In this document: positions 11,052 to 39,713 of the stretch, piece after piece
Layout: each line of letters starts with the position of its first letter
How positions within the stretch are numbered: the stretch's first letter is position 1
NCBI GenBank assembly: GCA_012514635.1
Contig: JAAYZX010000062.1
Location: 1 to 39,907 of the forward strand
DNA: 39,907 nt
Direction: 5' to 3'
DNA from: Actinomycetota bacterium
GTDB taxonomy: Bacteria; Actinomycetota; Thermoleophilia; RBG-16-64-13
Notes under the pieces: model-generated
What the model saw: the letters and a program-made list of their open reading frames with translations, nothing else
Told to the model about the DNA's origin: nothing
The model's database searches: none
Translations under genes and position numbers: made by a program

Positions 11052-14000
11052 TTAAGGGCGCGTGACCGCAGAATCAGAATCCGTCTGCGTCAACCTGAAG
11101 CCGACGAGCCTGGCAATGACGTGCTTGGGATCGGCTGTCAATGCACACGAACCGCTCCCCGGCACCACGTCAATCTCAAGGCGCAAAATGTCCCGGGCGT
11201 CTCCACCCCCTAACGCGACCGTCCGCCGGACAACGAAACGTCTCCTGTCTAGTTCTCCGTTCGTATCAACGATAACAATCCCCCCACCGGCAAATTGCCA
11301 GGGTGCACAATCGAAGACCCCCACTCCTCCGAGAGGAAACGATCCTCCGAGGCGGTCTTCGAGTTGATGCACAGCTAGTTCGAAGTCAAGAGTCCCAAGG
11401 TCACGCGATATGAACCACACATCATTCGCCAGCGCATCACCATCCACGAGGAACGCGTCCAGATAGGCCCAAGATCCCACCCGCTGAAGGGAGAGCTCAA
11501 GATCGCCGGCCAAGGTCGGGGCATCATTCGTTCGAACGTGCCGACGTGAACCGTCAACAACCTCAACGCCATCGACACCGGGTCCGTACGGCTCCAAGGC
11601 AGCTTCTTTCCAACCATGATCCAGGAGAAAGCGATTGGCTTTGGCGGCAACATTGGGAATTGGATGAATCGCCCATCGCTCATCATCGCAGGCGTTCTCC
11701 ACTACATACAGCCAGTGGCGCCCATCCTGCGCGGATTGGGCGAACTGAATCGCGGTGAGTTGGGGAGGTCGGGACCTCGTCCCATACTCTGCCTCCCAAG
11801 GTCCGCCGAGACCCTTAACTTCGATTAGACGCTCAACACGGTTTTCAGGACCACAGCGTGATTGGATATCAAAACCCGGATTGGCTGCTGGCATCACCTC
11901 AGGAAACCGGCCGCACTCCTTCTCATAGCTCAGTACACGCCGCACCGCGGCTATCTCGACGGGTTTCCAGCGCTCCTCATCCGACACGCCGCCGGGGTAG
12001 GCTTTCCGATGCGAGACTCCGGGTCCGCTAACCCAGAGCCGCCAGGGCGCCTGAGGCTGGGAACATGAGTAGGAGTCCTGCCAAGTATGGTGGGTTGGAG
12101 ATGACCCCGCAGCTTGGGCGTGATTTAGGCGGTGAAGTGCCTGCGTCTCCCCAACATCTCCCCGAGACCCTTGCTCCCGCTTCGACACATGGCGCTCAGT
12201 GTGGGCGCGAACACCGGCCTGCGACCTCGTCTCGGCGGCCGTCGTTTCCGTCGAACCCGAACCATGAGTTGAGGGGCCTTCAGCGCATGAAGAGTCATTG
12301 CCGTCCGAGAGAGCTACGTAGCTCTCCGTTGCGCGGCGCTCCAATGTCTCCAGCGCCTGTTGCAGAAACTCATCTTGGGACGATTCTTCGGAGGCCGCCT
12401 TGGGGGAATCAACGTCGCCCACGTCCATCGCTTGAGCCACCGAGACCGTTTCCGGATGCTCCAGGAGCAGGTGAGCTTCAGCGTAGGCATCAATGAAGTC
12501 CCCATCCCGGAAAATACACGCCCTTATTGCCTGCCGCGCCGGTGCGCTGGCGAATGCAGCCTCGATTTCGGTCGCCACGTCCTCAAAGACGACGCTCGCG
12601 CTCCCCCTCGCATATAGAACCTGGCCCTCCCAGACGGCGTTGGCCTCGAACTCCTCGGATGCCTGCTCTCCATCAAGAAACCATTCGGCCACGAGGTCCG
12701 TAGCCCGTAACCAGGTGCTGCAGGCCAACCGCCTTCCCGATTCGCGATCCATGGTGATCGTCTCTTCCTGGTCGGACCCCGTCGCCAGCCTCGATAGAGC
12801 AGCCCCGAGCCGTCGCATCCACTCAGCGCTGGCACCACCATCAGATGCGGCAGGGCGAAAACGTGTCACGCGCGTGACCAGTTGATTTTCAAGCAGCGGC
12901 AATCGTTGCAGGAGCGGATCGGTAGGGCCGAGCATGGAGAAGTCCGCCGTCTTTCTCACGATGGCATCCAGCAACGAATCTCGCGATGTGCGGCCGTTCC
13001 AGGACCAGGAGAACTCCGATGTGGCCTGCAGTCTGCCTCGCAGGTCAAGCCACAACCCCCCCTGGCTCCAAACCTTCGCTGGATAATGTTTCATCACTGC
13101 CTGGAAGCGCTTCTTTTCCGCAGAGGTCAACTGGACCTGGTCGGCAAGCCCCCGGATCCACGAAAGGACAGCGTCGAAAGAGGGTGTGAGACGAACACCG
13201 AGGAAATCCCACAGGCGGTGGAAGGAACTGATGAGAGAATGGAGCACGGGCCCACCGGGGACACCATCGGGGTTTTCCTGCGCCACTTCGTCGGACCGAT
13301 ACCACCCGCTCTCGCCAGGGAGCAGTGCCTCGACGGAGAACTCGCGCCGAAGTGACTCCGCCTCAGACTCCTCCAGGGTTGGCAGCATACGCTCTAATGA
13401 CTGGAACAATGGGATAGTTAGCTCGATCTTGGCATTAGAAGCGGCTGCATGCATCCTCAATCGAGCGAGCACCGACTCATAACCGTCGGGTTTGGCCTTC
13501 ACTCCCAGAGCGTCAAGGGCTGCGGCAAACTCCGGTTGGTCCCAGGCGAGCGCAACGAACTCCTCTGTACCCGCCAACACATGGGTCTCCGCTGTCTTTC
13601 TGTAGACCTGCTGCGGTAATCGCATCTCCCCAGTCTCGGTGGGAACACAAGCGGTTTGCCGCAGGCGAAAGAGCCATTCTGCAGCTACAGGGCCGACATT
13701 AAGCACACGCCCCTTCTGGCGAACAACGGCTTTCTCGGTCTTCTTCCAGCGCGGCGACCACGAACGGAGTATCCGCCAGGCTATCTCGGACCAAATGCTA
13801 GGCCTCTCTTGCGCCTCTTCCTGCCAATGTCGCCAGTACGACTCCGGCCAGTCGTAGGTATCCACCGGGTACCAATGTGTCTTTAAGGGGTACGAATCTG
13901 GCTCTTTGCCTCCCCTTTCGCAGCAGAAGGCTTCCAGAGCACTCCGCTTGTCGAACACGTGCTTGTAAGGAGACCCTGCGGTGTATGTGTGCTGCGGCAT

Positions 14001-16100
14001 AGGGAACTCAGACAAGCCCAGCTTATCGGGATCCCGCATCCATTCCAGGAGGTGTTCGCGCTCGGCGCGATCCAAGCCAGTCCAGTGGGCATCAGAGACC
14101 ACTTGGACAGCCGCGCCATCTTGAGGCAGCAGCCTGTCGATATCGCTGTTAACGCAGAGCAGGGGGTGGTCGCCGGCAACAACCCACGACCCATCACTGC
14201 ATAGCAAACGCAATTCGTTGAGCCCGAAAAGCACTGAAACATTCAGTCGGGCGGCTATGCGTACGACTTCGATAGCAACTTCCGGGTCGATAGGATCCGA
14301 TGAAAAGATGGCGCGTATCGAACGCAAGACCAGATCCTCGTCCGACACAGAGCGCTCCAACTCAGTTTTCTCCCAAGCCTGCACCAGAGCGTGCGCCGCG
14401 CCCTTCGCCTCTTTCAAGCCCTCGATCTCGGCCAAGGACCCAAGGGCCGCCGCCTCCCGCCGACTCAATCCACGCATGAATTGCAGCCAGGAACGATGGA
14501 CCGTATGCAAGGGAGCAGTAAGAATCTCCCACTCCTCGTCCGTGCAGGACTTTGGTTTCTGAGGAGACGCGATCATCACGTTTGCGGCCCCCAAGCTTGT
14601 ATGGTGAGATTGAGGCACGACATGGGCGGTGCGCCACCAAGAATCGGAACGCCAACCTTGCGACCGCGTCGCTTCGGCTGCCATCCGCCAAACGTGAACC
14701 AGGTCCTCGACCTTGGTGAGGCGGGGCACTGTTCCCTCTGTTGAACTACCCAGACGATCCAGTATCTGTTTTGGTTTGGTGACTTCGCAGAACCCCCAGC
14801 TTTCCAGTCTTTCCCGCTGCTGAAGGTCGACCTCATCAGCCAGCAAGGCGGTCTTTCCGGGTGAAAAAAGATCGAGGGCCGTATCACGTCCCCAGGTAGC
14901 CACGACTTCCGACGGGAGAGCGGCCACAGAGTCGGTCATCTGCAGGCTACCGTCGGCGCACAACAACACTGCCCTTCCCTGCAAGCCCTTTTGGAAGGCC
15001 CGCGACATGATGCTAGAGCACTCTTCAGCCAGTGACGTGCTGCCGGTTTGGAGCAGCGGCGGAAGCAAGGAGTAGGCGCGGGCGCGATCGTCCAAAGACA
15101 GGGCCGGCTGGCCAAGCCAGGCAAGCAGCGCGTCTGACAACAGACGGCCGATTCTCTCCAGGAGCCAGCGGTTGGTGGGCGAGGTGGAAGGCTCCTTGAT
15201 GCGTTCCCGAGCCGGATCCTGGATGAATGGGGCGTGACAGCTGAAGCCAAGCGGAACATCTACTTCGGTGGGGAGAAATGCGTACAGACTGTTCCTTCCC
15301 GCGAAGCCCAGCATCAAGACCACTTCGCAGGGCGGCAACTCCAGACCACTCTCGTTGCGGACTTCGCGAACTTCAGCGAGGCACTCGGGCGGAAATGCTT
15401 CCCGTTCACTACGCACCACCAGCAGACCTTCGTCCGGACCGCCGGGTACATGGACGTAAGAACTGCCGGAACAGGGGCCGGGGCGAAGGAACGTGCGCCG
15501 TACGGTTACTTCACCGAAAGTGATCTCCTCCAATGACTTGAATAGAAGAAGCGGTAGTGCGCTGTCAGCCCATCGGGCAAGCTGTTGTCCAACCGCCTCT
15601 TCTGCTGCGGGTTCCTTTACCGCTACCTCAATGCGCGTATCCCCGTCGCTTGTGGTGCGATTCGTCCATTCAGGCAGCGTGAACATGTCTTTGTGGAACA
15701 CGCAACTCAGTGTCGGTGTACGCACGTGAACGTCGGGCCCGAGCGAGAACAGGGATTTGAACCCCACCCCACGGAAGCCTATGGTCATGAGCGAGCGCTT
15801 ATTCGAGTAGGCGAAACTACAGAGAGAGCTGAACTCCTCTTCCGTGAAATCCCGTCCGTTGTGCGCGAACACGAAGCGGCCATCGACAACCGTGACGCTG
15901 ACTCGGGAGGCGCCGGCATCATCGGCATTCTGAAGTAACTCCGATATGACGTGGCGCGGGTTCTGCACTTGTTCGAAGAGTTGCTGCCATCCACCAGCGA
16001 GCCATGGCCGCTGAGCCCAAAGCAGCCAGTCCTCTTCGCAACGCCTGCGTACTGAATCGAAGTAAGCGGGGGCAACCGCAGTGCCATCCGTTCGTTTCAC
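11052..16100 (-). CDS. Giant NOV/sacsin-like protein: GHKL ATPase domain plus C-terminal DUF3883
   Basis: 1682 aa. The N-terminus is a Bergerat-fold (GHKL/HSP90-type) ATPase like sacsin and plant NO VEIN: E54...N58-ADDA in the N-box, the AHNGRDF segment (79-85), and GFRGVGFKS (108-116) as the glycine-rich lid. A long helical middle (about 350-1280) has no recognised domain. About residues 1385-1500 form a DUF3883 domain; GFD near 1409 and IEVKG near 1427 are the acidic and E-x-K residues expected of a PD-(D/E)XK-like nuclease fold. About 180 extra residues follow. GTG start with GGAGGTGG nine bases upstream. Such proteins recur in bacterial defence islands; a nucleotide-driven nuclease is my inference. 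It stands alone, 6.4 kb from the DISARM operon. Confidence 0.85.
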   Translation of the reverse strand: MKRTDGTAVAPAYFDSVRRRCEEDWLLWAQRPWLAGGWQQLFEQVQNPRHVISELLQNADDAGASRVSVTVVDGRFVFAHNGRDFTEEEFSSLCSFAYSNKRSLMTIGFRGVGFKSLFSLGPDVHVRTPTLSCVFHKDMFTLPEWTNRTTSDGDTRIEVAVKEPAAEEAVGQQLARWADSALPLLLFKSLEEITFGEVTVRRTFLRPGPCSGSSYVHVPGGPDEGLLVVRSEREAFPPECLAEVREVRNESGLELPPCEVVLMLGFAGRNSLYAFLPTEVDVPLGFSCHAPFIQDPARERIKEPSTSPTNRWLLERIGRLLSDALLAWLGQPALSLDDRARAYSLLPPLLQTGSTSLAEECSSIMSRAFQKGLQGRAVLLCADGSLQMTDSVAALPSEVVATWGRDTALDLFSPGKTALLADEVDLQQRERLESWGFCEVTKPKQILDRLGSSTEGTVPRLTKVEDLVHVWRMAAEATRSQGWRSDSWWRTAHVVPQSHHTSLGAANVMIASPQKPKSCTDEEWEILTAPLHTVHRSWLQFMRGLSRREAAALGSLAEIEGLKEAKGAAHALVQAWEKTELERSVSDEDLVLRSIRAIFSSDPIDPEVAIEVVRIAARLNVSVLFGLNELRLLCSDGSWVVAGDHPLLCVNSDIDRLLPQDGAAVQVVSDAHWTGLDRAEREHLLEWMRDPDKLGLSEFPMPQHTYTAGSPYKHVFDKRSALEAFCCERGGKEPDSYPLKTHWYPVDTYDWPESYWRHWQEEAQERPSIWSEIAWRILRSWSPRWKKTEKAVVRQKGRVLNVGPVAAEWLFRLRQTACVPTETGEMRLPQQVYRKTAETHVLAGTEEFVALAWDQPEFAAALDALGVKAKPDGYESVLARLRMHAAASNAKIELTIPLFQSLERMLPTLEESEAESLRREFSVEALLPGESGWYRSDEVAQENPDGVPGGPVLHSLISSFHRLWDFLGVRLTPSFDAVLSWIRGLADQVQLTSAEKKRFQAVMKHYPAKVWSQGGLWLDLRGRLQATSEFSWSWNGRTSRDSLLDAIVRKTADFSMLGPTDPLLQRLPLLENQLVTRVTRFRPAASDGGASAEWMRRLGAALSRLATGSDQEETITMDRESGRRLACSTWLRATDLVAEWFLDGEQASEEFEANAVWEGQVLYARGSASVVFEDVATEIEAAFASAPARQAIRACIFRDGDFIDAYAEAHLLLEHPETVSVAQAMDVGDVDSPKAASEESSQDEFLQQALETLERRATESYVALSDGNDSSCAEGPSTHGSGSTETTAAETRSQAGVRAHTERHVSKREQGSRGDVGETQALHRLNHAQAAGSSPTHHTWQDSYSCSQPQAPWRLWVSGPGVSHRKAYPGGVSDEERWKPVEIAAVRRVLSYEKECGRFPEVMPAANPGFDIQSRCGPENRVERLIEVKGLGGPWEAEYGTRSRPPQLTAIQFAQSAQDGRHWLYVVENACDDERWAIHPIPNVAAKANRFLLDHGWKEAALEPYGPGVDGVEVVDGSRRHVRTNDAPTLAGDLELSLQRVGSWAYLDAFLVDGDALANDVWFISRDLGTLDFELAVHQLEDRLGGSFPLGGVGVFDCAPWQFAGGGIVIVDTNGELDRRRFVVRRTVALGGGDARDILRLEIDVVPGSGSCALTADPKHVIARLVGFRLTQTDSDSAVTRP

Positions 16101-16428
16101 GTCAGCTTGCCACCTCCAGACCTAGGATGACAGAGATCAGCCCTCAAGAGGCCCGTCCCCGCATCCGAAATCAGGCCAGATACTACGGCTAAAATGACGA
16201 CATGTGATCCCAGATGGTCCGGCCCATCCCGGTGCGGATACGGATGCTTAGTATTCTATCGGCACATAATTCGCAACACATTAAGCCATTTCTGTCTACA
16301 CGCCTCCTAGAGAATCACCTCCCAAGTGACTCCCTGGGGTACTAGGCGACACCACCATGACCGACTCGTGATGGATCCGCTTGACCCGAAGACAAAGGAC
16401 ATTGCCGCGCAGGCATGAAAGAGTGGAT
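16101..16428. other. Divergent intergenic stretch upstream of the giant ATPase gene
   Basis: No gene. On the minus strand it carries GCCGATAGAAT followed by an A/T-rich stretch (about 16245-16275) that could serve as a promoter for the giant gene, but no hexamer pair fits well. On the plus strand it leads into the pseudogene at 16429. Confidence 0.3.
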
Positions 16429-23213: not shown

Positions 23214-23993
23214 TCACGCCCCGGGCAGCGGCTTCAGCAGCCCCCGCTCGATCAGGCCGCGGAAGTGCATCACCACCGTCGCCGCGAGGGCCGGGTCGCG
23301 CACCAGCAGGCCCAGCTCGATGTTGCGGTCGAGGGCCGCTTCGGTCAGGTTGGCGGAGGTGATGAAGACCGCCTCGTCGTCCTTGACCACCGCTTTGGCG
23401 TGAAGTACGCCTTTGGGGCGGGGAAGCTCGAGGGCCCGAGGGTCGTAGAAGACGTTCGGGCGGCGGTCACCGGGCCATTCGTCGCCCCAGAAGCGGTCGG
23501 CGAAGCGCCGTACCAGGGCGTCGGCGGAGGTAGTGTCTCCGTACTTGCGCTCGATGTTGAGGAGCAGCATCACGTCGAGGGTCGGGGTCGAGTCCATGCG
23601 TGCGGAGATCACCTCGAACGCCTTAGGTCCGTCGAAGAAGGCATAGGTGGCCGCCCAGATCGAGCGCTCGGCCGAGCTGAGGAGCTCTTCGTAGACGCGA
23701 CGGGTGTCGCGGGCGTGAAGGCCGGTGACCTCGGGCCCCGACCAGACCAGGTCGGGCTGCCGGGAACGCGATGCCGCTTCGTCCATCATCGCGAGGCAGG
23801 CGGCGGCTCCTCGACCGGTTATCCCCAGACGATCAAGAGCCTCCAGAGCGTCTACCGCCTCTGCCGCGTCCTCCGTGATGCCGACCGCGCGCAGGGCGGC
23901 TACGGAGTAGGGAGGCGCCAGCAGGCCGCTCTCCAAAGCTTCTGCCAGACGTCCGCGGACGTGCGGTGGCATGGCGAGCAACCGCTTCGGCAT
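23214..23993 (-). CDS. drmC: DrmC, phospholipase-D-like nuclease of DISARM
   Basis: 259 aa. The start at ATG 23991-23993 shares one base with the drmB stop; a longer frame from 24194 is a shadow inside drmB. One HKD motif is present: H198-A-K200-x4-D205, followed by ITSANLTEAALDRNIELG, the classic PLD-superfamily pattern. A single HKD per chain implies a dimer for a complete active site. In the DISARM literature drmC is conserved, but was dispensable for protection in the tested class 2 system. An N-terminal helical part (1-80) precedes the PLD fold. Confidence 0.93.
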   Translation of the reverse strand: MPKRLLAMPPHVRGRLAEALESGLLAPPYSVAALRAVGITEDAAEAVDALEALDRLGITGRGAAACLAMMDEAASRSRQPDLVWSGPEVTGLHARDTRRVYEELLSSAERSIWAATYAFFDGPKAFEVISARMDSTPTLDVMLLLNIERKYGDTTSADALVRRFADRFWGDEWPGDRRPNVFYDPRALELPRPKGVLHAKAVVKDDEAVFITSANLTEAALDRNIELGLLVRDPALAATVVMHFRGLIERGLLKPLPGA

Positions 23994-25801
23994 CAGACAC
24001 CCTCGAAATCGAAGAGGGCCGCGTCTTCGACTCCCAGGATGGGCACGACCAGCGCCCGGTCCAGATACTCGTTGCGCATCTCGCAGGAGGTCTCGGCGAC
24101 CAGGGTGCAGCCGTGGCAGGCGGCTCCATGCAGATAGCGCTTCTCCATGGTGCTCCCGGGCGCGTGCTGGGCGCAGATAGGGTCGTTGGAACAAAGCGCC
24201 GCCGTGGCAAAGGCCCTCTCCAGGTGAGCCTGCGTGTGCCGGGCCTGAGCCACGAGACCGCCCAGTGTCCCTTCGGCGTCAGAGCTGCCGGTGAACAGGA
24301 GGAGGCCGTAACGCTCGGATTCGGTATCGGCGTAGATGCGCTCCCGAATGGAGCTGGCCGAGTATCCCGCCCTCATGGCCAGCGCCTGGACCAGCAGGTG
24401 CGACAACGTGTGGAGGAGGATGTAAGGGCCGCCGGGGAACGGGCGTTCGCTCTTGCGCTCTTCGCTCCATTTCTGGTGTCCACCGGCGAGATCATCGAGG
24501 CGTTCCTCGACTGCCGGCCTCGCGAGCCAATCGCGGACGGCGGAGGCCCGGAGTTGGATGAAGACCCCCTCTCCCCTGTTCTCGACGGCGGGGAACCACT
24601 CGGGCTCGAGCTGTATCTGAGCCCGCTCGACATCGGTCTCGTACTCGCCGTGGATGTCGGGCATGATGGCTTCGAACCGCGAGAAGCCCGCGAGCGCCAT
24701 GACCTCGCGCAGGCGGTGGAGTTGGTAGACCGCCTCCACCGGCTCCAATCGGCCGTCCCTTCTCCAGACATGGTCGGGCAGTCGGCGCACGTGGAAGTCT
24801 TGGTCGACTATCAGGTCGTCCCCGAACCCTTCAGTAGCGGCGAGGATGGCATCGAGCTCCACCTCTTTGACCGGCCGCTCTGCGACACCGCCACTCTTGA
24901 CCGCCTGGATGGCTCCCAGCACCTCTGTATCGGTGAAAGGAAGCAACTTATCGGCCACAGCGGGCACTTTCTTGAGGACAGCGAGTTCTTGGACGCCCTC
25001 GACGATCTGCAAGTAGTCCCACAACTCCCGCACCGTCCGCTCCGCGTCGTTGCCCCGGTCCGGCAGCGAGAGCACGCTCACCACCTGGGGGAAGTACGAG
25101 TTGGAAGCAGTACGCACCAGAAGGCGGCTGTGTTCGGAGCAGTCTTCGTGGGCGTCCCTTCCCAGCCAGGGCCTACGTCCGCTGCAGAATCCGAGTGCGT
25201 TCTGTTCGATCTCGCTGGCCTCATACAGCGGCCGGGTCTTGCCGCATCCTTGGCAGCGCACGAAGAGCTCGGCCAGATCGCCGGTGGTGCCCCGCTCATC
25301 GAGCCACAGTTGACATCGCGTGCAGGTCTGGTCGCCTTTGTGGACGAAACCCCGCCAGTCGATGTCATCCACGTGGCCTTTGGGGCAGGCCCGCACGAAG
25401 CGGGTGGCCACCACCTTTCGGCCTTCGCAGCGGCCTTTCTCATCAAGTTGCTGTCGGTGGACCAAACGTCGGGAGCGTTCTCCCCGGCCCGCCTCCTGCT
25501 TGGTCGGGTCTTCTTGCACCACGAACCATTCGGGGAAGCGCCACACGCGGATGCCCCGGCTACCTTCGCCAGGATGATCCGAAGCCGGCGGAGGAGCATA
25601 GAGGCGTACTGCTCTCACCCCCGTCATCATCTCGAGCTTCCGGGCCAGGCGGGGTTCGATGACCTCGGATAGGTCGTTGGTCTTGGGCCACCCGTCCAGA
25701 CCGCCGATGATACCCGAGTCATTGGGTAGGTCGATGAGGGCGCCCGGCCCATAGGTGGTGATGATCTGACTGCTTCTCAGCTGTCCGTGGGCCCTGCTCA
25801 C
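23993..25801 (-). CDS. drmB: DrmB, DUF1998 partner of the DISARM helicase
   Basis: 602 aa, GTG start overlapping the drmA stop. Zinc-binding cysteines occur in the middle (CPKGH, CTRC, CQGCG) and again in the DUF1998 part near the C-terminus (CHGCT, residues 562-565, then SCEMRNEYLDR). The DUF1998 helix HTLSHLLVQALAMRAGY is also present. By family knowledge DrmB forms a complex with the helicase DrmA and helps it bind DNA. It lies between drmA and drmC, as in other DISARM loci. Confidence 0.93.
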   Translation of the reverse strand: MSRAHGQLRSSQIITTYGPGALIDLPNDSGIIGGLDGWPKTNDLSEVIEPRLARKLEMMTGVRAVRLYAPPPASDHPGEGSRGIRVWRFPEWFVVQEDPTKQEAGRGERSRRLVHRQQLDEKGRCEGRKVVATRFVRACPKGHVDDIDWRGFVHKGDQTCTRCQLWLDERGTTGDLAELFVRCQGCGKTRPLYEASEIEQNALGFCSGRRPWLGRDAHEDCSEHSRLLVRTASNSYFPQVVSVLSLPDRGNDAERTVRELWDYLQIVEGVQELAVLKKVPAVADKLLPFTDTEVLGAIQAVKSGGVAERPVKEVELDAILAATEGFGDDLIVDQDFHVRRLPDHVWRRDGRLEPVEAVYQLHRLREVMALAGFSRFEAIMPDIHGEYETDVERAQIQLEPEWFPAVENRGEGVFIQLRASAVRDWLARPAVEERLDDLAGGHQKWSEERKSERPFPGGPYILLHTLSHLLVQALAMRAGYSASSIRERIYADTESERYGLLLFTGSSDAEGTLGGLVAQARHTQAHLERAFATAALCSNDPICAQHAPGSTMEKRYLHGAACHGCTLVAETSCEMRNEYLDRALVVPILGVEDAALFDFEGV

Positions 25802-28800
25802 GACCGCCTCCTTGGTTGTGCGGCGGTCAGACTCTCTACGAAGAGGTCCACCTCGGGCTCCACGTCACGGAGTGAGCGCCCCACCCGGAACTTCTCGTGG
25901 TGAGGGGTCTCGAACTCTTCATCAAGTAGGTCACGCAGTAACGGTTTGGGTCCCTCCTTGCCCTCATACTTCTGATACTTGAGCGCCACACCCACAGCCT
26001 CGTAATCGTCGAAGACCTTGCGCCAAGAATCCAAGAGGTCGACCACCCGGTTCTGGATGCTGCGCAGCGCCTGTTCGCGCTCATCCGCCTGGTCGATGGG
26101 TTGGCTCCGCACGCGCGACCGGAACGCCTCCAGCAGGAGCTCCTCCAACCGCTCTCGTTGGGAGGCGATGTTCTCCGCGCCCAGAGGCGGGGTCATGTTC
26201 TTATCCACATGCCGGGCCATGGCCACGAGCGCCCCGGGAAGCCCCCGATCGAGGGCCCGGGCCGCAAACGGGGTCACGCTTCCCACCTCCACCGAACGGT
26301 AGAAGGTCTCGTGGTAGTGACGGAAGCGCTCGAAATGGGAGCGGTCGCGGGGCTTGTGTACGTTGAAGAGCGTCACGACCAGACCCGGCCGCGTGGGATC
26401 ACGACCGACCCGGCTGGTCGCCTGGATGTACTCGGCATGGGCCTTGGGCTGACCGACCACCACCATGAGCCCCAGACGCTGCACGTCGAGACCGACCGAG
26501 ATCATGTTGGTGGCGATGGCGCAATCGACCCGCTGTTTGATGTCGAAGAAGGGCAGACCCAGTCGCCGGCGGGCCTCGGCCACCTTGTCGGTGGAGACCC
26601 GCGAGGTGAGCTCCACCACCTCCGAGAACGTCCTGCGGTCGCGGAAGAGCCCTGTCTTCTCTCCGATGCGGCGGCGCTGGCCGTAGGCTTTGAGGGTGTT
26701 CTGGACCTCCTCCTCCAGGATACGGCGTGCCCCTCCCAGTTCGCGCAGACTGTTGAAGTAACCCATCACGGTCATGTAGGGGTCGGCGGGGTTCTCTTCG
26801 TTCTCAAAGCCCCCGGCCTCGACGTAGGCCCGCTGAGCGGCTCCCATGAGGGCGAGATAGGTCTTGCGCATCGCCACTTTAGGATTCCGTCCTTGAGCGG
26901 CTATCCCCACATAGAGCCGGGCGGGTATTTCTGAAGAGAGACGGGTATGGGCGAAGAAGGTGTCGCGCCGGTCGGCTCCCTGGGGCGGGAACACCCGCGT
27001 GAGCGCTCTCCCGAAGAGCGCCTGCACCTGGTCTTGCGCCTGCCTGACCGTCGCTGTGGAAGCCACGATCTTGGGCTTGGTGACGGTACCATCCACCTCG
27101 CGCGTGCAGAGCGCCTCGATCGCCGTCTCGTAGAGGCCGGCCATGGTCCCCAGCGGACCGGTGATCAGGTGGAGTTCGTCCTGGATGATGAGGTCGGGAG
27201 GCAATAACGGCGCCGCCAGACGTGATCCCCTACCCGGCTCGGCCGGTCCGTAGAAGCCGGAGGCGTCGAAACGATCGGCTCCTCCCAGGAGAACCCCGCT
27301 CGGTCCCACCCAGGGGAGCGAAGCGAACTTGTCCACCGTCGCGATGATGAAGGCGGGCAGACGCCGATAAAGCGGTTCGTCCACCGCCACGATGGGGAGT
27401 GGCCGGTCGCCGGAGAACTCGCAGTCGATGTTCATGCATCCCACCAGCAACTGGGTGGGCTCGTCGGAGTCGGCCAGGCCCTTGTCATCGCAGAGCGAGA
27501 AGGAGTCGGCCCCGAAGCGGGTGCCGCACCAAGGACAGTCTTCCAAGGGGATTGGCGCCGCCTTGTGATGGGGGTCGTTCTTGTATTGGCGGGTCTTGGC
27601 GCGGGCCGTGTCCTGGCGCCCATCTCCTTTGCGCCCCATGACATTCGGAGTGGCCGCCTTGCCCACCCAGAGGCCGATCTCGAACGGCCACTCGCCGTAG
27701 CGCTCGGGATCCTCCCCCCGTTCGAGCTCCAGCGCGCACACCAGCCCCGCCGCCCGCGAGAGCTGATCGAGGGTGAGAAGACGCAGCGTGTAGCGCATGA
27801 TGACGGTGACCCCGGCGCCCTCCCGCCCGCCTTCCCCGGGATGGCGCAGACGCCTGAGCACCATGGCGAACGCAGCGAGACCCAGATAGGCTTCGGTCTT
27901 GCCGCCGCCGGTGGGGAAGAAGAGAAGATCGACCGTCTTGCGATCGCCTTCGGTGGGATCCACAAGACCGGGGATGTTGAGCAGCATGAACGCGAGCTGG
28001 AAGGCCCGCCAACTCGGCTCCGAGATGTCCAGACGCTTCTCGAGCGCCCGGGCCACCGCCCGGTTCGCCACCTTGAAGGCATTGAGCGCGTCAGGGTTGT
28101 CGGCGAGCGCATCGATGCCTCTCCCGATCCGCTCTGCGGCGGACTCCGCCGATCTCACAAGTTGCTCAGCCGTCTCGCGACGCTCTCCGCTCAAAGAATC
28201 GAGGGCACCCTTCTGCTCTTCTATCCACTCCCGGTAGCGCTCGACCAAAGGCTCAAGAGCCCGGCGGGCCTCATCGCCCCCGGTCAGGCTCCCCAGTGCG
28301 ACCATGGAGAGCTCCACACCCTCAAGATCGGTGGTCTCGGTGTATTCCACCTCTGCTGAAGGGATCCAGGCGGTGCGCACCGTGTGGCAGGCTCCGTCCA
28401 AGAGCTCCCAGGCGGCAGAGACCCCGTGGCCCACAGCGTACTCAGGCGTATCTTGGTATTGAAGGTCGGCGACCTGTTCATCCCAATCGGAGGAATCGGT
28501 GCCGTGCGGGTCGGGTCTGGGCACCAGCGGAGTGGTCGAGGTGACCGCGATCTCGGGCTGGAAGACGTAGGCGAGATCCGGCTTGGACTCATCGGGCGGA
28601 CGGCGATTGACGAGGAACACCGAGACGGCCCGCGTCCCCCTGGGGATATGGCCGGCCAGAGCAGCCGACGAGATGGTACGGGCGCTCACGTGGAGCACCA
28701 GCCCTTCTGCACCAGGCAGCCGCACCTCCGCTTCACGCTCGGGGACCACGAACGGCACCACCACCTCGCGAGGGCGGCGTTGCCAGACGGAGTACTCCTT

Positions 28801-29208
28801 GCCCTCGGGGTCGGCAACCACTTCGGTCGTGTAGTCGCCCCAGGTGACCAACGCCTCTAGTTGCTCGGTCTCGGGAGATACAAGGAAGCTCAGGCCCATG
28901 GAGGAGGGGAAGTAGGCTTTCTTAGCGGCCCGACGCTCTTCGGCGCTCTCTTCGGGGAGCCCGACGTCGACCGGCACCTCATCGAGCTCGTCATCTTCAT
29001 CGAGATCGGCGCTCTCTTCGGGCCGGGAGTCGGCCGGGATGAGAAAACCGGCCAGATACCAGTTGGAGGGCCTGACGTGGCCGGGTAGCTGCTCCTCGGC
29101 CAGGTGGTGTCCGGCCCACGGCCCGATCAGGTCGAGCTTGAGGGCCTCGACCAGTCGTTCGCGCACCTCAGGCGACGTCATGATGGCGGTGTCTTCTGGT
29201 GACGACAT
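25798..29208 (-). CDS. drmA: DrmA, DISARM superfamily 2 helicase
   Basis: 1136 aa. The long N-terminal part (1-400) includes an acidic stretch near residues 60-90. Walker A is FFPTGGGKTEAYL (near 430), and the Walker B box is IIQDELHLITG (near 675) with DELH. A cysteine pair WCGTRFG...C lies between them. The C-terminal RecA-like lobe has MISVGLDVQRLGLMVVVGQ and EYIQATSRVGRD (near 930), the characteristic DrmA signature. The protein should be an ATP-driven DNA translocase; with DrmB it forms the core that engages phage DNA. Start ATG 29206-29208 immediately follows the drmMI stop. Confidence 0.94.
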   Translation of the reverse strand: MSSPEDTAIMTSPEVRERLVEALKLDLIGPWAGHHLAEEQLPGHVRPSNWYLAGFLIPADSRPEESADLDEDDELDEVPVDVGLPEESAEERRAAKKAYFPSSMGLSFLVSPETEQLEALVTWGDYTTEVVADPEGKEYSVWQRRPREVVVPFVVPEREAEVRLPGAEGLVLHVSARTISSAALAGHIPRGTRAVSVFLVNRRPPDESKPDLAYVFQPEIAVTSTTPLVPRPDPHGTDSSDWDEQVADLQYQDTPEYAVGHGVSAAWELLDGACHTVRTAWIPSAEVEYTETTDLEGVELSMVALGSLTGGDEARRALEPLVERYREWIEEQKGALDSLSGERRETAEQLVRSAESAAERIGRGIDALADNPDALNAFKVANRAVARALEKRLDISEPSWRAFQLAFMLLNIPGLVDPTEGDRKTVDLLFFPTGGGKTEAYLGLAAFAMVLRRLRHPGEGGREGAGVTVIMRYTLRLLTLDQLSRAAGLVCALELERGEDPERYGEWPFEIGLWVGKAATPNVMGRKGDGRQDTARAKTRQYKNDPHHKAAPIPLEDCPWCGTRFGADSFSLCDDKGLADSDEPTQLLVGCMNIDCEFSGDRPLPIVAVDEPLYRRLPAFIIATVDKFASLPWVGPSGVLLGGADRFDASGFYGPAEPGRGSRLAAPLLPPDLIIQDELHLITGPLGTMAGLYETAIEALCTREVDGTVTKPKIVASTATVRQAQDQVQALFGRALTRVFPPQGADRRDTFFAHTRLSSEIPARLYVGIAAQGRNPKVAMRKTYLALMGAAQRAYVEAGGFENEENPADPYMTVMGYFNSLRELGGARRILEEEVQNTLKAYGQRRRIGEKTGLFRDRRTFSEVVELTSRVSTDKVAEARRRLGLPFFDIKQRVDCAIATNMISVGLDVQRLGLMVVVGQPKAHAEYIQATSRVGRDPTRPGLVVTLFNVHKPRDRSHFERFRHYHETFYRSVEVGSVTPFAARALDRGLPGALVAMARHVDKNMTPPLGAENIASQRERLEELLLEAFRSRVRSQPIDQADEREQALRSIQNRVVDLLDSWRKVFDDYEAVGVALKYQKYEGKEGPKPLLRDLLDEEFETPHHEKFRVGRSLRDVEPEVDLFVESLTAAQPRRRS

Positions 29209-32200
29209 CTAGAACAGGCTCCTCACGTCGGGGTCGGTATCAGATGACGCCTTCTTGCCCCTGCGGGACTTCTTCGCGCCGGCACCGGCCCGAGCCTCCT
29301 CGGCCGCACGCTCGGCGTTGAGCTCGAGGAGTCGGGCGAGCAACTCGTCACGCACCTCGTCGGGCCAACGATAGCGCCAGGGCTTCTTCCGCCGCCCCGA
29401 ATCCTCTTCATCGACCTCGTAGTCGAGCAAGAACTCGCACTCGGTGGGGATGTCGGTCCAGCCGTAGGCGTCGAGCACGGCCCGGTCCATGGCCTCGTGG
29501 AGCTCCCGCAGCTTGAGGATATCGGGAGAATCCTCCTCGGGATCGTGGAAGCGGTTGTAGGTCTTGGTGAGACCCTCGTCATTCTGCACCATGAGAGCGG
29601 CACGGAACTCGTAGTAGTCTTCGCCCACCTGCTCGAGAACGGGATGGGACTCCCAGTCCTCTGGGAAGGGGAAGGTCTCGAAGACGTCTGAGGGCGTATA
29701 GCGAAGACGATCCTCCAGAGACGAGCCGAAGAACCGGGCCCAGACCTCGTGAGGGCGGGATTGGAGAGCGCAGAAGGCGGCTTGGGTGGAGAAAGGGAAG
29801 ACAACAGTGCTCTCCGCGTAGACCATCCCCGCCGGGAGAAGAGCAAAGGCAACGCGCTGGCCGACGCGCGAGATGACCAGCACCCGCTCCAGCCCGGCGA
29901 TGGCGCCGTACAGCTCCTTGGCCGATGAACCGTAATGCCACCAGTACCTCGCTCTCTTGCGGCCGATGACGTTGTTCGTGAGCTTCGCGCGCTCCGGCTT
30001 CACCTTCTCCTCAACAATCGCCATCAGCTCCGGCCAGCGCTGCCGACACTCCTCCTCGCTTCGCTCCCGGAAGTTGATGACGTAGCGGTGGTGGGCATGG
30101 GTGGGGCTGGTGTTCACCTCTTCACCACCGATATACGGGAAGATGACCTCAGCGTTGGCCGGGTCCTGTTCAATCAACCGATGCATCTCGGCAATCGGAG
30201 TAGCCACCCCCCTGGTGTCGGTGTCGTCGAAGGTGAACCCCATGCCCAAAACGTAGCTACCCACGAAACTCTTGCCGGCGTTCGATACAAGGCGCGCAGG
30301 ATCGTCGTGACCGCCACGGTGGAAGAGAAAGGCGGTGATCTTCTCCACCCGTCGGCCGTCTAGAACCTTCTCGCCCTGGCGCAAGCCTTTGCACACGTGG
30401 ATGACACTGACCACCACCGCAGCCAGCCCGGGCCACTTGAGTCGACGTGTGGCCGAGTAGATCTCTCCCCCGTGGGTGCCTATCCAAGCCAACCCGGTAG
30501 AGCGTGTGTCCCCTTGAGCGATGGTATTGGTGGCGATGAGCCCGAACGCTCCTGCTTCACGTATCAGGACGAATGCCCGTCTGAAGAAGTGGGCCACGAG
30601 GTCTGAGTTGCCATGACTAGCCTCGTGCAGCGTCTTCAGCCAGTCGGGGTAGTTGGGTGGATTCGCTGCCGCCATGGTGTTCTTGCCCGCGAACGGCGGG
30701 TTCCCCACGAACGCATCGAACCCGGGATTGTCCCGCTGGAACACCTCCGGATACTCGAGCTCCCAGTGGAAGGGCACCAGTGGCGGGTCGGCGTGCCTCC
30801 ATTCGGCGAGCATGTCTTGGTGCTTGTCGGCCTCACCGGCTTCCACCGCAGCCACGAATGTCGCCAGCTTGGTCTCCCTATCCCTGGGCCTGGCGCCTAG
30901 GAAGAAGGCGGCCGTCACCAGATCGCCTGCCGGCTTCACCTGGGCCAGCTCCTCCTCAGCCTCTCCCAGGAGGACCTTCAGCTCCTGCTCGGGGGTATCG
31001 TCGTCGGCCTGTCTGATGAGCTCCCGGATCTCAGTGGCCCTCTCGGTGTGCTCCCGTATGCCGAGCGCCACGAAGGCTTGGCTACCGCCGGCTTTCTTGG
31101 CGTCCCAGTGGAAACCCTCGATCTGGCGGGGAGTGAGGCCCACCAGAGAGTCTCCGTGCTTGAGTGCGTGGTCGACGAAGGTCAGGGGATGCTCACGGGC
31201 GAGGGTCGCCAGCCAGAGCGACATCTTGGCCAGGTCGACCGCCACCGGGTTCTTATCCACACCATATAGACAGCGCTGGGCGACCAGCCGTCGGGCGAAG
31301 ACCAGCCGGTCCTCGTTGGCCGGTATCTCAGGTTTCTCGGCGTAGAACTCCCACGACTCGATGAGGATGTCGGCCAGCTGACGGCAGGTCTCGACCAAGA
31401 AGGCGCCTGAACCCATGGCCGGGTCGCAGACCTTGAGCTCGAGGATCTCTTCCGGCCGGGGCGGCTCGCCGTTCGGACCCTTGAGGCGCTCCAGGATAGG
31501 CTGCAGAGTGGTGCTCACGATAGGAGCGGTTAGAGAGCGCGGCGTGTAATGAGAGCCTGAGCGGCGGCGCTCCTCGCTCGGCTGCAAGACCATGGAGCCC
31601 GGGGGCACCAGGTCGGGTGTGGCAGCGCGATCCGCCGCACGGTCGAGGGCCGCGTGCAACTCCTCCAGAGTCGAAGCCGCTTTCATCTCCTTTGTGACGG
31701 CAGCGGCGGGCTTCTGGTCAGTCTGATCGCGGAACCACTTCTCGCGCTTCGCGGGCTCGACGGTCAGAAGCTCGTCAAGGTCGATGGTCGTAGGAGCTCC
31801 CATCCGCTTAGCCGGACGTATGGCCAGCGAGCGTCCGTGTGCCGTCTCCAGGCGGAAGCCCATCATGGTCTCGTAGACAGAGCCGATCTGCTCCACATCC
31901 AAAGCCCGGTAGGAGATGCGCTCTCCGTCCAGCACCAGGAGCTTCTCCAGCACCCGGTAGACGGTGCCGTCGGGGACGAGCGGTGGATGGATACGTTCGT
32001 GGATCTGGCGGGCTCCGGCTTCAGTGCGTCCCTCAAGGAACGAGAAGCGGTCGGGGTCGAAGAGCACGCCGTGCCGCTCGGGCAGGTGCATCTCCTGGGA
32101 GCGGGCCCCGTCGTGGATCATGCGGAAGAGCGTGAGCAGTTGCGCCCAGGCGCCGAAACGCTGGTCCATGGTGTCGGGATAGAGAGCCGCGTCCTCGCGC

Positions 32201-33207
32201 AGCCGCTTGTGAAGAGCGGCAAGGGAGTAGTACTGCACGAAGGTCTCGTCTTCGGGCAGCATGTCGCGCTCCTCGGCATAGAGGATGAAGACCAGGCGCA
32301 ATAGCACCGTGAGCAGGGCGTGGTAGACCTCGTCGGGCCGCTCGCGCAGTTGGTGTCTGAGCAGCTCGCCCCTGCTCGCATCGTCGGCCGCCTGGAAGCC
32401 GCGGAGGAGTTCATACAGCGCGTGCAGCACCTGCTCGGCCAGACGCTCGCTCACCTCGTTCTGATACCTGCGGCTGTCTTCGAGAAGATCGGTCAGACGT
32501 TCTCCGGGCCTTACGATCAGCAGACGATTCTGGCCCAAGAGCAGGCGCATGGCCGTCGATATGGGCCGCCCGGGCGTCGTCAGCATGTGAGGGATCTTGA
32601 AATCGAGCCAGCCCGAGCTCTCGCCCCGAGGAGCGGATATCAAGCGGACCGTCTCGCCGTTGAAGATGAGGCCGGCGAGGACCCCCGTCTGCCGAAGGAG
32701 ACGCTCCATGCGGCCGTGCTCAGAAGCTTCGAGACGACCCGCGCCCCGCGTCTGCCGGTCGATGTCTTCACCCGGATCGAGCACGCGCACGAGAAGCTGC
32801 CAGGCGGACTGTCCCTCCCCTGGTTCACGCTCTCGCACGGCGTAGTCGGCGCGCAGAGTTTCGCCGTAGGCGGGCAATGCCACCTCGAGCTCTTCGGGCA
32901 TGGGGCTCTCTTCAGTACCTGCGTAATACTTGGGGGAGAAACCCCACCCGAGCACCTGACGGGCGAAGGTCTCGAAATCGGGTAGGTACCAGTCCGACTC
33001 TTCCTCCCCCGCCCCGGGCCGCTCCACCACGCACTCCTTGAGAGCCGTCTGCCCCTCTACATCACGACGCTGGAGGATGGCTCCGGCTTTGATCAGCGCC
33101 AGCGCTGAGACCACCAGGCCCGTGGGTTGGACGAATCCCAACCATTCCAGATGCGCGAGTATGTCAGGGTCGAGCTTCTTCTTGGCCATCAGTTCGTCTC
33201 CGGCCAC
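29209..33207 (-). CDS. drmMI: DrmMI, class 1 DISARM N6-adenine DNA methyltransferase
   Basis: 1332 aa, the size of large PglX-like gamma-type adenine methyltransferases. Motif I is VCDPAMGSGAFLVETCRQ (near residue 600), followed by motif IV GNPPFAGKN (near 836). The N-terminal third (1-570) and the C-terminal third, with DFVIG-like and LRYTPSDVFETFPFP segments that fit a target-recognition region, flank the catalytic core. It should methylate adenine at a host-specific site and so mark self DNA; the site cannot be read from the sequence. It overlaps drmD by 19 bp and abuts drmA. It has no separate restriction domain that I recognise. Confidence 0.92.
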   Translation of the reverse strand: MAGDELMAKKKLDPDILAHLEWLGFVQPTGLVVSALALIKAGAILQRRDVEGQTALKECVVERPGAGEEESDWYLPDFETFARQVLGWGFSPKYYAGTEESPMPEELEVALPAYGETLRADYAVREREPGEGQSAWQLLVRVLDPGEDIDRQTRGAGRLEASEHGRMERLLRQTGVLAGLIFNGETVRLISAPRGESSGWLDFKIPHMLTTPGRPISTAMRLLLGQNRLLIVRPGERLTDLLEDSRRYQNEVSERLAEQVLHALYELLRGFQAADDASRGELLRHQLRERPDEVYHALLTVLLRLVFILYAEERDMLPEDETFVQYYSLAALHKRLREDAALYPDTMDQRFGAWAQLLTLFRMIHDGARSQEMHLPERHGVLFDPDRFSFLEGRTEAGARQIHERIHPPLVPDGTVYRVLEKLLVLDGERISYRALDVEQIGSVYETMMGFRLETAHGRSLAIRPAKRMGAPTTIDLDELLTVEPAKREKWFRDQTDQKPAAAVTKEMKAASTLEELHAALDRAADRAATPDLVPPGSMVLQPSEERRRSGSHYTPRSLTAPIVSTTLQPILERLKGPNGEPPRPEEILELKVCDPAMGSGAFLVETCRQLADILIESWEFYAEKPEIPANEDRLVFARRLVAQRCLYGVDKNPVAVDLAKMSLWLATLAREHPLTFVDHALKHGDSLVGLTPRQIEGFHWDAKKAGGSQAFVALGIREHTERATEIRELIRQADDDTPEQELKVLLGEAEEELAQVKPAGDLVTAAFFLGARPRDRETKLATFVAAVEAGEADKHQDMLAEWRHADPPLVPFHWELEYPEVFQRDNPGFDAFVGNPPFAGKNTMAAANPPNYPDWLKTLHEASHGNSDLVAHFFRRAFVLIREAGAFGLIATNTIAQGDTRSTGLAWIGTHGGEIYSATRRLKWPGLAAVVVSVIHVCKGLRQGEKVLDGRRVEKITAFLFHRGGHDDPARLVSNAGKSFVGSYVLGMGFTFDDTDTRGVATPIAEMHRLIEQDPANAEVIFPYIGGEEVNTSPTHAHHRYVINFRERSEEECRQRWPELMAIVEEKVKPERAKLTNNVIGRKRARYWWHYGSSAKELYGAIAGLERVLVISRVGQRVAFALLPAGMVYAESTVVFPFSTQAAFCALQSRPHEVWARFFGSSLEDRLRYTPSDVFETFPFPEDWESHPVLEQVGEDYYEFRAALMVQNDEGLTKTYNRFHDPEEDSPDILKLRELHEAMDRAVLDAYGWTDIPTECEFLLDYEVDEEDSGRRKKPWRYRWPDEVRDELLARLLELNAERAAEEARAGAGAKKSRRGKKASSDTDPDVRSLF

Positions 33208-36200
33208 AGGTAGACGAGACCCACCGGTTCGATGCGCGTGGCCCGGACTTCGTAGAAGTCGCGGATGCGTTGGGGCTCACGCTCAAGGTCGCGCCCGAAC
33301 TGCTTCAGGCGGATGCGCCACCACTTGACGTCGGCTTCGAGCTGACGCTTCTCTTCGGCCCCCACTCCCTCCAGATCGAACCCCAGGTCGAGAGCGAGTT
33401 GACGGGCGTCTTTCTCGTAACGGGCGAGTTGCTCAGATACCCGCTTCTGCTGACGCTCAAGGAGCTCGCGCAGGAGCCGCTCCTCACGTTCGCCCCGTTG
33501 CCGGAGACGCTGGATGGCGGTGGCGGCCAGATCTTCTGCCCGTTTCTCGAGTTGCGGCAGGAGCCCCTCCACATCCCGGGGAGCCGACTCAAGCAGCTTC
33601 TTGCGAATGGCTTCGTCAGGTTCACGTCCTGAGCGGTCGGACAAAGTGTTCTCGAGCAGCTCGAGCGTGCGGGTTTCGGCCTCGCGCCCGTAGGGTTTGA
33701 GGGCACTCTCACGCCTCGACGGATCCACCCAGCGGGCCGTCAGCGGCACCACCTCTTCGTGCAGTCTCTCCGCCCGTTGTCCATATAGGGATAGGCGTCC
33801 AAGGAGGAGCACGCGGGGGATGGAATCGGCCGATTGGGCCAGACAGGCCCGCGACAGGTCGTGGTAGATGAAGCCCTGCGAGCGGAAGCGGGCCAAGAGC
33901 CGTTGAGCCACCCGCTGCTCCAGGTGCAGGTGCACCACATCATCGGTGAGCACGCCCGCATCTTCGAACACCACCGGCCGGATGGGGGCCTCACGCCGCC
34001 AATCGGCCAGCTTCTGGTCGCGCTTGCGAGGAGTACGGAGGGTGTCGAGGGTGGCGGTCCAGGAGGGGTCGGCGTATTCCTTGCGGTCGAGCGCCGGGAA
34101 GGTCCAGACCTTGCGGCCCTCCTCGTCGCTGTCTGCGGCGAGAGGCTCGGCCCCCAGGAGCTCGAGCGAAGAAGACAGAGCGTCGCGGAAGGCGCCTTCT
34201 TCGAAGCCGGTCCAGGCCCGAGAGCGCTCAAGAAGCGTGCGACATTGCTCGATCTGCTCTTCGAGTTCTTCGCGGCGCTCGCGGGCATCCTCGAGCTCTT
34301 CTGCGGCGACCTTCTTGCGGTCGGCATCGATGTCGAGGTCGTCCAACTCTTCAGCCAGACCTTCGGCGTCGCTGTGACGGATGCCGTATTTGACCAGACG
34401 CTTCTCGACCTCGTCGTCGATCACCTTGGAGAGGCTGCCCAACTCCTTCTTGATGCGTTCGGTCTTTCGCACCAGGACCTCTAGCACGCGGTCTTCGGCC
34501 CGTTGCGGGAGCACGAAATAGTGGCAACGGACCTCATCTGCAGGCTGCAGTTTGCGGTCGATGCGGCCGTTACGCTGCTCGATGCGGCCGGGGTTCCAGG
34601 GAAGATCGAAGTGGAAGAGGTCGGTGCAGTGGGCCTGGAAGTTGAGCCCTTCGCGGGCGGCGTCGGTGGCGATGAGGATGCGCAGGGGGTCCTTGGCCGG
34701 ATCGGTGTTGAACCGCTGTTGCAACTCTTTGCGGCGGGCTCCGCTGGTGAGACCGTCGATGACCTCGATGCGCTCGTCGCCCTGGTCGGTGCCCTCGATG
34801 ACAGACTGGAGCATCTCTCTCAGATAGACCTTGGTCCCCTGGCGGTTCTCGGTGAAGATGAGGACGCGGCGTTCGTTCCAAGTGGGTGGCTCGCCCTGCA
34901 CCTCTTCATCCACTGCGGGCAGCCCCGGGCACATGTTCACCCGGATCCAATCCACCAAACGTATGATCTTGGCATCCGGCTCCCAGCGGGCCCGCTCGGC
35001 GATATCCTGCATGCGGTCGAGCAGCTCCTGCTCCTCGCGCCATATCGCCTCAGCCGCAGCATCGCGAGGCGACGTCGCCTCTAGGGCCTCGGTCGCCGCC
35101 TCGAGCTGGGCCGCCTCTTCGGCCTCGAGCTCTTCATCGGGAAGATCGGCCCGGTCATCATCGCCATCGATGGCAGAAGTGAACCGCTCGGCCTCCCTTT
35201 CTGCCCGCGCCTCGTCTGTCCGGCACCCCACACTCTTCTCCCACTGACGCCGGGCCGTCTCGCGGTGGACCCCAAGCGACCGGGCGAAAGCCTCGATCGA
35301 AGAGAGCAGGCGCTGCTGCAGGCCGACCACCAGGAGGCCTGCCGCCGCCTGGGTGCGCCGGGTAGTGGTGGCGAAACGCTTCTCGCGAAGGGTGCGGTAG
35401 TCATCGAGAAGATCGGAGAGCACGATCTCGGGAGCGTCTCCCGGTAGGTCATCGATCACCTCACGAACGACCCGCCGCTTGGGGAAGCCACCCTGGATCT
35501 CGCGGATATCATCCTTCAGCCGCCGGACCATCACATCTTCAAGGTCCCTTCTGCCGCGCACTTTGACCCCGCGGGTGAAACGATAGGGATCGAGGAGCTC
35601 AAGCAGAGTGGAGAAGCTGTTCGAGTGACCGTTATGAGGCGTGGCCGACAAGAACAGGCGGTGCTCGAACCGGGGCGCCAGGTCGCGGATGGCCCGGGTG
35701 AACTTGGTCTCGATGCCGTAGCGTCCGCCGCTGGACGGAGCCGCGTGATGGGCCTCGTCGATGATGAGGAGGCTGCCGGGCAACATGTCTCCTAACCATT
35801 CGCGCAGGGGGTCGGTGTAGACGGGGTCGATGAGCAGGTTGTGCGAGACGAGAAAACGGCTGTGGGTGCGCCAGGGGTTGACGCCGAAACCGCGCTCTTG
35901 TCTTACCCGGCCGAGGTAGGCTCGGTCGAGGATCTCGAACACCAGGCCGAACCGCTCCTCCAACTCGCCCCTCCACTGCTCAAGGACAGAAGCAGGCGCC
36001 GCCACCACGATGTGCTTGGCCTTCTTGCGGAGCAGGAGCTCGCGGGCGATCAGCCCGGCCTCGATGGTCTTGCCCAGGCCGGTGTCGTCGGCGATGAAGA
36101 GGTTGACCCGAGGCAGCAACAGGGCTTTTCGCAGCGGCTCCATCTGGTAGGCGTCGATCTTGATGCCGGCCCGGAACGGTGACTGGAAGAGACTGGGGTC

Positions 36201-36518
36201 GGTAGCCGTGACCGAACTCCAGCGCAGTGTGTGCAGGAAGGCGGCGAAACGACGGGGCGTGTCGAAGCCTCTGGCGGCGAGATCGTCCCACCCCTCGTCT
36301 TCGACTATCATGCGATCGGGTTCGTAGTCCCAATAGACCTGCAGAGTCTGGCCCTGCGCGTCGTCGTCGGCACAGGCGAGACTCACCACCGGCGAGAGCC
36401 CCGGCACGGAGGCCGGCTCGACCTCCTCGACCAGCCAGCGCCGCGAACGGACGAGCACGAGCTCGCCCACCGCGGGGACGCGCTCGGGCAGATAGCGATT
36501 TCCTGCGACAGGCGTCAA
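33189..36518 (-). CDS. drmD: DrmD, SNF2-type helicase of class 1 DISARM
   Basis: 1109 aa, TTG start with GGAGG nine bases upstream. SNF2 helicase motifs: FIADDTGLGKTIEAGLIARE (Walker A near 148), LLIIDEAHHA (DEAH near 254), LFLSATPHNGHS, and in the second lobe LIATDAAREGLNFQ with FDLPWNPGRIEQRNGRIDR (near 640). A long coiled-coil C-terminal half is rich in Glu/Arg/Leu. By family knowledge this gene, with drmMI, distinguishes class 1 DISARM from class 2. It starts the operon; an inverted repeat overlapping its probable promoter is listed separately. Confidence 0.93.
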   Translation of the reverse strand: MTPVAGNRYLPERVPAVGELVLVRSRRWLVEEVEPASVPGLSPVVSLACADDDAQGQTLQVYWDYEPDRMIVEDEGWDDLAARGFDTPRRFAAFLHTLRWSSVTATDPSLFQSPFRAGIKIDAYQMEPLRKALLLPRVNLFIADDTGLGKTIEAGLIARELLLRKKAKHIVVAAPASVLEQWRGELEERFGLVFEILDRAYLGRVRQERGFGVNPWRTHSRFLVSHNLLIDPVYTDPLREWLGDMLPGSLLIIDEAHHAAPSSGGRYGIETKFTRAIRDLAPRFEHRLFLSATPHNGHSNSFSTLLELLDPYRFTRGVKVRGRRDLEDVMVRRLKDDIREIQGGFPKRRVVREVIDDLPGDAPEIVLSDLLDDYRTLREKRFATTTRRTQAAAGLLVVGLQQRLLSSIEAFARSLGVHRETARRQWEKSVGCRTDEARAEREAERFTSAIDGDDDRADLPDEELEAEEAAQLEAATEALEATSPRDAAAEAIWREEQELLDRMQDIAERARWEPDAKIIRLVDWIRVNMCPGLPAVDEEVQGEPPTWNERRVLIFTENRQGTKVYLREMLQSVIEGTDQGDERIEVIDGLTSGARRKELQQRFNTDPAKDPLRILIATDAAREGLNFQAHCTDLFHFDLPWNPGRIEQRNGRIDRKLQPADEVRCHYFVLPQRAEDRVLEVLVRKTERIKKELGSLSKVIDDEVEKRLVKYGIRHSDAEGLAEELDDLDIDADRKKVAAEELEDARERREELEEQIEQCRTLLERSRAWTGFEEGAFRDALSSSLELLGAEPLAADSDEEGRKVWTFPALDRKEYADPSWTATLDTLRTPRKRDQKLADWRREAPIRPVVFEDAGVLTDDVVHLHLEQRVAQRLLARFRSQGFIYHDLSRACLAQSADSIPRVLLLGRLSLYGQRAERLHEEVVPLTARWVDPSRRESALKPYGREAETRTLELLENTLSDRSGREPDEAIRKKLLESAPRDVEGLLPQLEKRAEDLAATAIQRLRQRGEREERLLRELLERQQKRVSEQLARYEKDARQLALDLGFDLEGVGAEEKRQLEADVKWWRIRLKQFGRDLEREPQRIRDFYEVRATRIEPVGLVYLWPETN

Positions 36519-39708: not shown

Positions 39709-39713
39709 GGGAG

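Follow-up and report, generated by a model that had tools for sequence, protein, structure and literature searches.

Does the giant protein encoded near a DISARM island in an Actinomycetota bacterium belong to that island, or is it a device of its own? An earlier note had read it as a single-protein ATP-controlled DNA-cutting or sensing device and had placed it next to the island. We analysed the gene computationally within its stretch of 39,907 nucleotides (the window), covering the anatomy of the 1682-aa product, the conservation of its active-site residues, its kinship with ATPases of Hma systems, and the exchange of its C-terminal domain together with the recurrence of that exchange. Results indicated that the 1682-aa protein is most probably a defence protein.

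The gene lies outside the DISARM operon

The reading frame opens with GTG and runs without interruption (Table 1). Downstream on the same strand is an S-layer-homology protein gene (8956-10695), and upstream are small ORFs and a YaiI/YqxD-family gene. No operon partner was obvious, and the closest annotated genes are S-layer genes. One RCC1-repeat/SLH gene of the window (20418-22034) contains six 117-nt direct repeats at 21131-21820.

The window holds a complete DISARM system (DrmD, DrmMI, DrmA, DrmB, and DrmC) in a separate operon, about 7.1 kb from the gene. DrmA, DrmB, and DrmMI were found beside none of the relatives' loci examined. Membership of DISARM was ruled out by this position and by the missing DrmA, DrmB, and DrmMI, and the proximity looks incidental; the DISARM island of the earlier note is real and complete, but a functional link to it is not supported. 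Directly downstream of DrmC, a 241-aa ORF (22482-23207, minus strand) without family matches carries R-DSYE-H, which resembles the RX4-6H motif of HEPN RNases and is recorded as a lead only. Where the DISARM/RmuC stretch ends, genes for tRNA-Phe and tRNA-Asp (39406-39788) mark a possible island insertion site.

Table 1 Features of the 1682-aa protein gene and of the neighbouring DISARM system (window coordinates)
Feature	Position	Strand	Basis
GGAGG, likely ribosome-binding site	16113..16117	-	12 nt 5' of GTG; read from sequence
Whole gene, sacsin/HSP90-type ATPase with predicted DUF3883 nuclease domain, 1682 aa	11052..16100	-	
N-terminal GHKL ATPase domain, residues 30-203, sacsin SR1-like	15492..16013	-	NF047352; fold match 5v46
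E54 codon, predicted general base; N-box E54-xxx-N58	15939..15941	-	Same residue in each of 50 aligned sequences
G2 box/ATP lid GFRGVGFKS, residues 108-116	15753..15779	-	Kept in relatives
HSP90/GyrB-like middle (transducer) region, residues 204-441	14778..15491	-	VIA-align
Folded region without family annotation, residues 442-1215, co-linear with Hma-associated ATPases	12456..14777	-	
Low-complexity linker, residues 1216-1369, predicted mostly disordered	11994..12455	-	Low pLDDT over most
Predicted DUF3883/NOV_C PD-(D/E)XK nuclease domain, residues 1370-1505, TmtA-type	11586..11993	-	
Predicted active-site residues E1393, D1411, E1427, K1429	11814..11924	-	Invariant in tail alignments A4 and A6
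C-terminal 177 aa, residues 1506-1682, only in the 1682-aa protein	11055..11585	-	Beta-rich low-confidence model
DrmC, PLD family; true start probably inside the ORF	23214..24194	-	PDLC02587, 270 bits; PLDc_2
DrmB, neighbouring DISARM	23993..25801	-	NF038324, 561 bits
DrmA, neighbouring DISARM	25798..29208	-	NF038325, 1166 bits
DrmMI, neighbouring DISARM	29209..33207	-	PDLC02643, 1324 bits
DrmD, neighbouring DISARM	33189..36518	-	NF038317, 1018 bits

A sacsin-type ATPase body is joined to a predicted nuclease domain

The NCBIfam sacsin N-terminal ATP-binding model NF047352 matched the protein at 74.6 bits (cut-off 50), and Pfam SACS reached 30.7 bits, slightly below its cut-off of 32.8. In an AlphaFold2 model based on a 50-sequence alignment, residues 1-1200 had a mean pLDDT of 87. 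Structural comparison by VIA-align matched residues 30-203 to the SR1 ATPase domain of animal sacsin (5v46; Z 13.2, rmsd 2.9, 156 residues) and residues 30-441 to HSP90, TRAP1, and GyrB (Z about 13). The GHKL boxes N (E54/N58), G1 (H80-F85), and G2 (G108-S116) are intact, and E54, N58, D61, H80, G82, D84, K101, G108, R110, G111, F114, K115, and S116 are invariant among the 50 aligned sequences. E54 presumably acts as the general base, a role assigned from GHKL enzymes, and low pLDDT at residues 107-112 agrees with a flexible ATP lid. The sacsin-type N-terminus with intact ATP motifs described earlier was thus confirmed. The 1,000 aa of unassigned middle lacks family annotation, as had been claimed, but residues 204-441 model as an HSP90/GyrB middle domain and residues 1-1200 are folded. 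Kinship with MutL or gyrase by sequence was rejected (PDB sequence matches were weak and the fold search preferred HSP90 and sacsin), and so were tandem repeats in the middle region, where profile comparison gave one pair only (355-425 with 895-960, 81% probability). Unlike animal sacsin, the 1682-aa protein has a single ATPase module and, in place of further modules, the predicted nuclease domain; the DnaJ, HEPN, and ubiquitin-like domains of sacsin were not matched.

Model confidence was low for most of the tail (residues 1216-1682), except for residues 1370-1505, whose core (pLDDT about 90) has the a-b-b-b-a-b topology of PD-(D/E)XK nucleases. Pfam NOV_C matched residues 1382-1476 at 27.6 bits (cut-off 22.1). 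By VIA-align, this domain shares the PD-(D/E)XK core of the archaeal Hjc resolvase 1gef (Z 10.0, rmsd 2.9, 111 residues of a 116-residue chain) and of SPARDA nucleases (Z up to 10.8), from which it differs in being fused to an ATPase. The GFD...EVK residues pointed out earlier are D1411, E1427, and K1429, all invariant, with E1393 further upstream. DUF3883 therefore is present as described, and the domain models as an Hjc-like PD-(D/E)XK nuclease core with conserved predicted catalytic residues, the nuclease-like site that structure prediction had been suggested to reveal. The likeness to plant NO VEIN (NOV), known here from the Pfam model alone, consists of the NOV_C match; the 1682-aa protein differs in being bacterial and in having an Hma-type body. 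Residues 1506-1682 had no relative among the loci examined.

The body belongs to a family of Hma-linked ATPases

Relatives of the ~1200-aa body were searched for on plasmids by tblastn and in GTDB species genomes, where the scan gave 139 relatives and the best 80 of the 139 were kept; HmaA, HmaB, and HmaC, the components of Hma (Type-1 BREX-related, BR) systems, were identified by PADLOC models in the loci scanned. Long plasmid matches, from Bradyrhizobium and Niveispirillum, covered 74% of the query at 32% identity, and the Bradyrhizobium relative shares its operon with genes for a helicase and for proteins with DUF1156 and DUF499. Alignment to 49 relatives was co-linear from end to end, with 27-36% identity, 72 invariant columns, and invariant GHKL motifs. 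The body gene was found together with HmaA in 77 of the loci examined (L012 and L077 are one contig counted twice), most commonly in the order HmaA-ATPase-HmaB-HmaC on one strand (45 loci). In these loci the HmaA and ATPase genes point the same way and overlap by a median of 3 bp, and 53 of 69 adjacent pairs are at most 60 bp apart; since the kept loci were those that matched the query best, the figures describe the family and not the share of Hma systems that have an ATPase. One relative (L027) begins at a contig end beside HmaB and HmaC, and two (L018 and L087) are on contigs too short to judge Hma neighbours. A ~1400-aa sacsin/HSP90-like ATPase adjoining or overlapping hmaA recurs in many Hma operons of bacteria and archaea (L015-L094, e.g. 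L021, L022, and L036), and in L036 HmaA and the ATPase form one ORF.

Among 396 sampled genomes of the phylum, HmaA was present at E <= 1e-150 in 33 and the full-length body only in the source genome, which makes the ATPase an optional companion of Hma. In a relative of the same family (G003), the ATPase stays inside Hma and is identical to that of L077 ('Actinobacteria bacterium isolate FK_Sedi_B_Bin.10'). A phage origin was considered and rejected: no PHROGs match was obtained, and the search gave one weak phage-record match and one viral contig with an Hma operon including the ATPase. The survey for defence genes proposed by the earlier note found the family overwhelmingly linked to them. 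That note had made its reading depend on a nuclease-like active site and on such an association; with DUF3883 modelling as a nuclease and the family linked to defence genes, neither ground for giving it up was found. The reading as a single-protein device is accordingly supported in part, by the predicted nuclease domain and the defence-linked family, but the partner system of this family is Hma and not DISARM.

The C-terminal domain has been exchanged more than once

In the Hma loci examined, DUF3883 is missing from the ATPase and sits on HmaA instead, in 76 of 77 cases by strict motif. The HmaA of a Bradyrhizobium plasmid (L008, 9073-12621) reads GYGI...EVK instead of GYDI; the DUF3883 aspartate is lost and the nuclease may be inactive. 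A conserved C-terminal domain of ~120 aa, probably a docking module, closes each of the 76 unfused ATPases tested (75 at E < 1e-5). This domain had no match in three fused proteins, the 1682-aa protein, L032 (Chloroflexi), and L089 (Cyanobacteria), in which DUF3883 is present and the C-terminal domain is gone. They are the only DUF3883-fused ATPases among the loci examined (best 80 of 139 relatives) and, in the kept loci, exactly those with contig room yet without adjacent Hma genes; beside none of the three were separate HmaA, HmaB, or HmaC genes found. Compared with the Hma-linked ATPases, therefore, the 1682-aa protein has no adjacent Hma and no C-terminal domain, and its DUF3883 is in cis rather than on HmaA.

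L032 is surrounded by HerA, UvrD-type helicase, PD-(D/E)XK, and M78-peptidase genes. Its region 5815-17813 is operon-like (M78 peptidase, a 401-aa unknown, HerA, fused ATPase-DUF3883, UvrD-type helicase, PD-(D/E)XK) and adjoins type III restriction-like genes, possibly forming a multi-gene TmtA-type system.

In the body tree, the three fused proteins fall apart from each other, and AU tests rejected uniting all three in a single clade (p 7.6e-6) as well as pairing the 1682-aa protein with L032 (p 7.3e-5). In the DUF3883 tree, the 1682-aa protein and L032 fall in the TmtA-type branch (100/100), and L089 falls among the HmaA domains (100/99). The 1682-aa protein has long branches in both trees; because of that of the body, its nearest neighbour there, L015, is not secure. 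These placements and the AU rejections point to at least two, probably three, independent fusions that drew on two nuclease sources, TmtA-type and HmaA-type.

Relation to Tiamat, to the unlinked Hma system, and to housekeeping chaperones

By its sequence, the 1682-aa protein is placed between two known kinds, with an Hma-type ATPase body and a TmtA-type nuclease domain. We favour, with reasonable but far from full confidence, that it is a free-standing derivative of an Hma-type ATPase whose C-terminal domain was replaced by a TmtA-type DUF3883 nuclease, giving a one-protein ATP-gated defence nuclease.

Less probably, it would be a divergent Tiamat (TmtA), a single-gene defence protein whose body resembles Hma-linked ATPases through general family kinship; we regard this as unlikely. 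Judged through its PADLOC models (PDLC03964-03972), Tiamat TmtA shares the single-protein layout, with a sacsin/GHKL ATPase in the N-terminal part and DUF3883 in the C-terminal part, as in the example L010, which matched a TmtA model end to end at 1279 bits, and its nuclease domain is of the same type. Nine TmtA models matched the 1682-aa protein as well, the best at 187.5 bits, but their best stretches were partial (residues 45-599 and 1229-1502) and took in only parts of the body. In phmmer comparisons, the body scored about 480-770 bits against Hma-linked ATPases and about 9 bits or less against the TmtA bodies L010, L011, and L014. Hma-linked ATPases without DUF3883 also match the TmtA models, through the ATPase, so the TmtA label is loose. 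A UvrD-type helicase gene follows in L010 and L032, whereas none lies downstream of the 1682-aa gene.

The source genome (2.34 Mb, 129 contigs) has one ATPase of the sacsin/Hma type, the 1682-aa protein itself, and a Dpd-type helicase. HmaA, HmaB, and HmaC are absent from the window, and a complete set without a sacsin-type ATPase is on contig C7. The protein might hence work in trans with this system, standing in for the ATPase that relatives such as G003 keep in their Hma operons, a reading to which we give little credence. The genes are unlinked, the C-terminal domain common to all tested Hma-linked ATPases is missing, the C7 system carries a DUF3883 of its own, and most Hma systems do without the ATPase, to judge from the phylum genomes above. 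A chaperone-like or housekeeping role as an HSP90/sacsin protein, with a DUF3883 that does no more than bind nucleic acid, would suit the HSP90 and sacsin fold matches and the S-layer gene neighbours, but is very improbable given the conserved predicted active-site residues, the restriction-like operon that the family accompanies, and a distribution in the phylum far too sparse for a housekeeping gene.

Discussion

Read as a free-standing derivative of an Hma-type ATPase, the protein looks like one part of a larger bacterial immune machine that has turned into a stand-alone device. Recurrence of the fusion is the chief argument that the ATPase and the nuclease work together. HSP90, MutL, and other GHKL proteins close as dimers at the N-terminus, driven by ATP, and Hjc-type nucleases work as dimers. 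We infer that the sacsin-like body of the 1682-aa protein would sense an invader-derived structure or protein, that ATP binding would shut a dimer's N-terminal GHKL clamp, and that closure would be passed on via the middle domain and the flexible linker. Placed behind the linker towards the C-terminus, two Hjc-like nuclease domains could be paired, or licensed, by closure, and might then cut DNA and protect the cell from phage.

A 2013 paper (PMC3710099) described the DUF3883 on an SNF2 helicase beside DUF499 as a new REase domain, and Hma stands for helicase, methylase, and ATPase (PMC8565338). In PMC12839542, Type-1 BR systems are described as tripartite, with a helicase-fused REase as the primary effector and a mechanism that is only predicted; the mechanism of Tiamat is described as unknown (PMC10482375). 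The words sacsin, GHKL, HSP90, and HATPase are absent from the main text of PMC12839542 and likewise from that of PMC7641849, which treats the same operon; a sacsin-type ATPase linked to Hma thus does not figure in these main texts. Going further, and with more doubt than belief, we propose that this ATPase could be an optional fourth Hma/Type-1 BR subunit, unlisted in those main texts, which gates the DUF3883 nuclease of HmaA. It would have been freed at least twice, probably three times, by capture of a DUF3883 in place of the C-terminal domain, each time yielding a one-protein ATP-gated restriction device.

If the same ATPase-nuclease pair does exist both split (an ATPase gene with HmaA-DUF3883) and fused, control of a nuclease by an HSP90-like clamp would be a testable common principle, and the 1682-aa single protein would be a simple model of it. 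The protein would matter more still should the ATPase turn out to be a genuine subunit of Hma.
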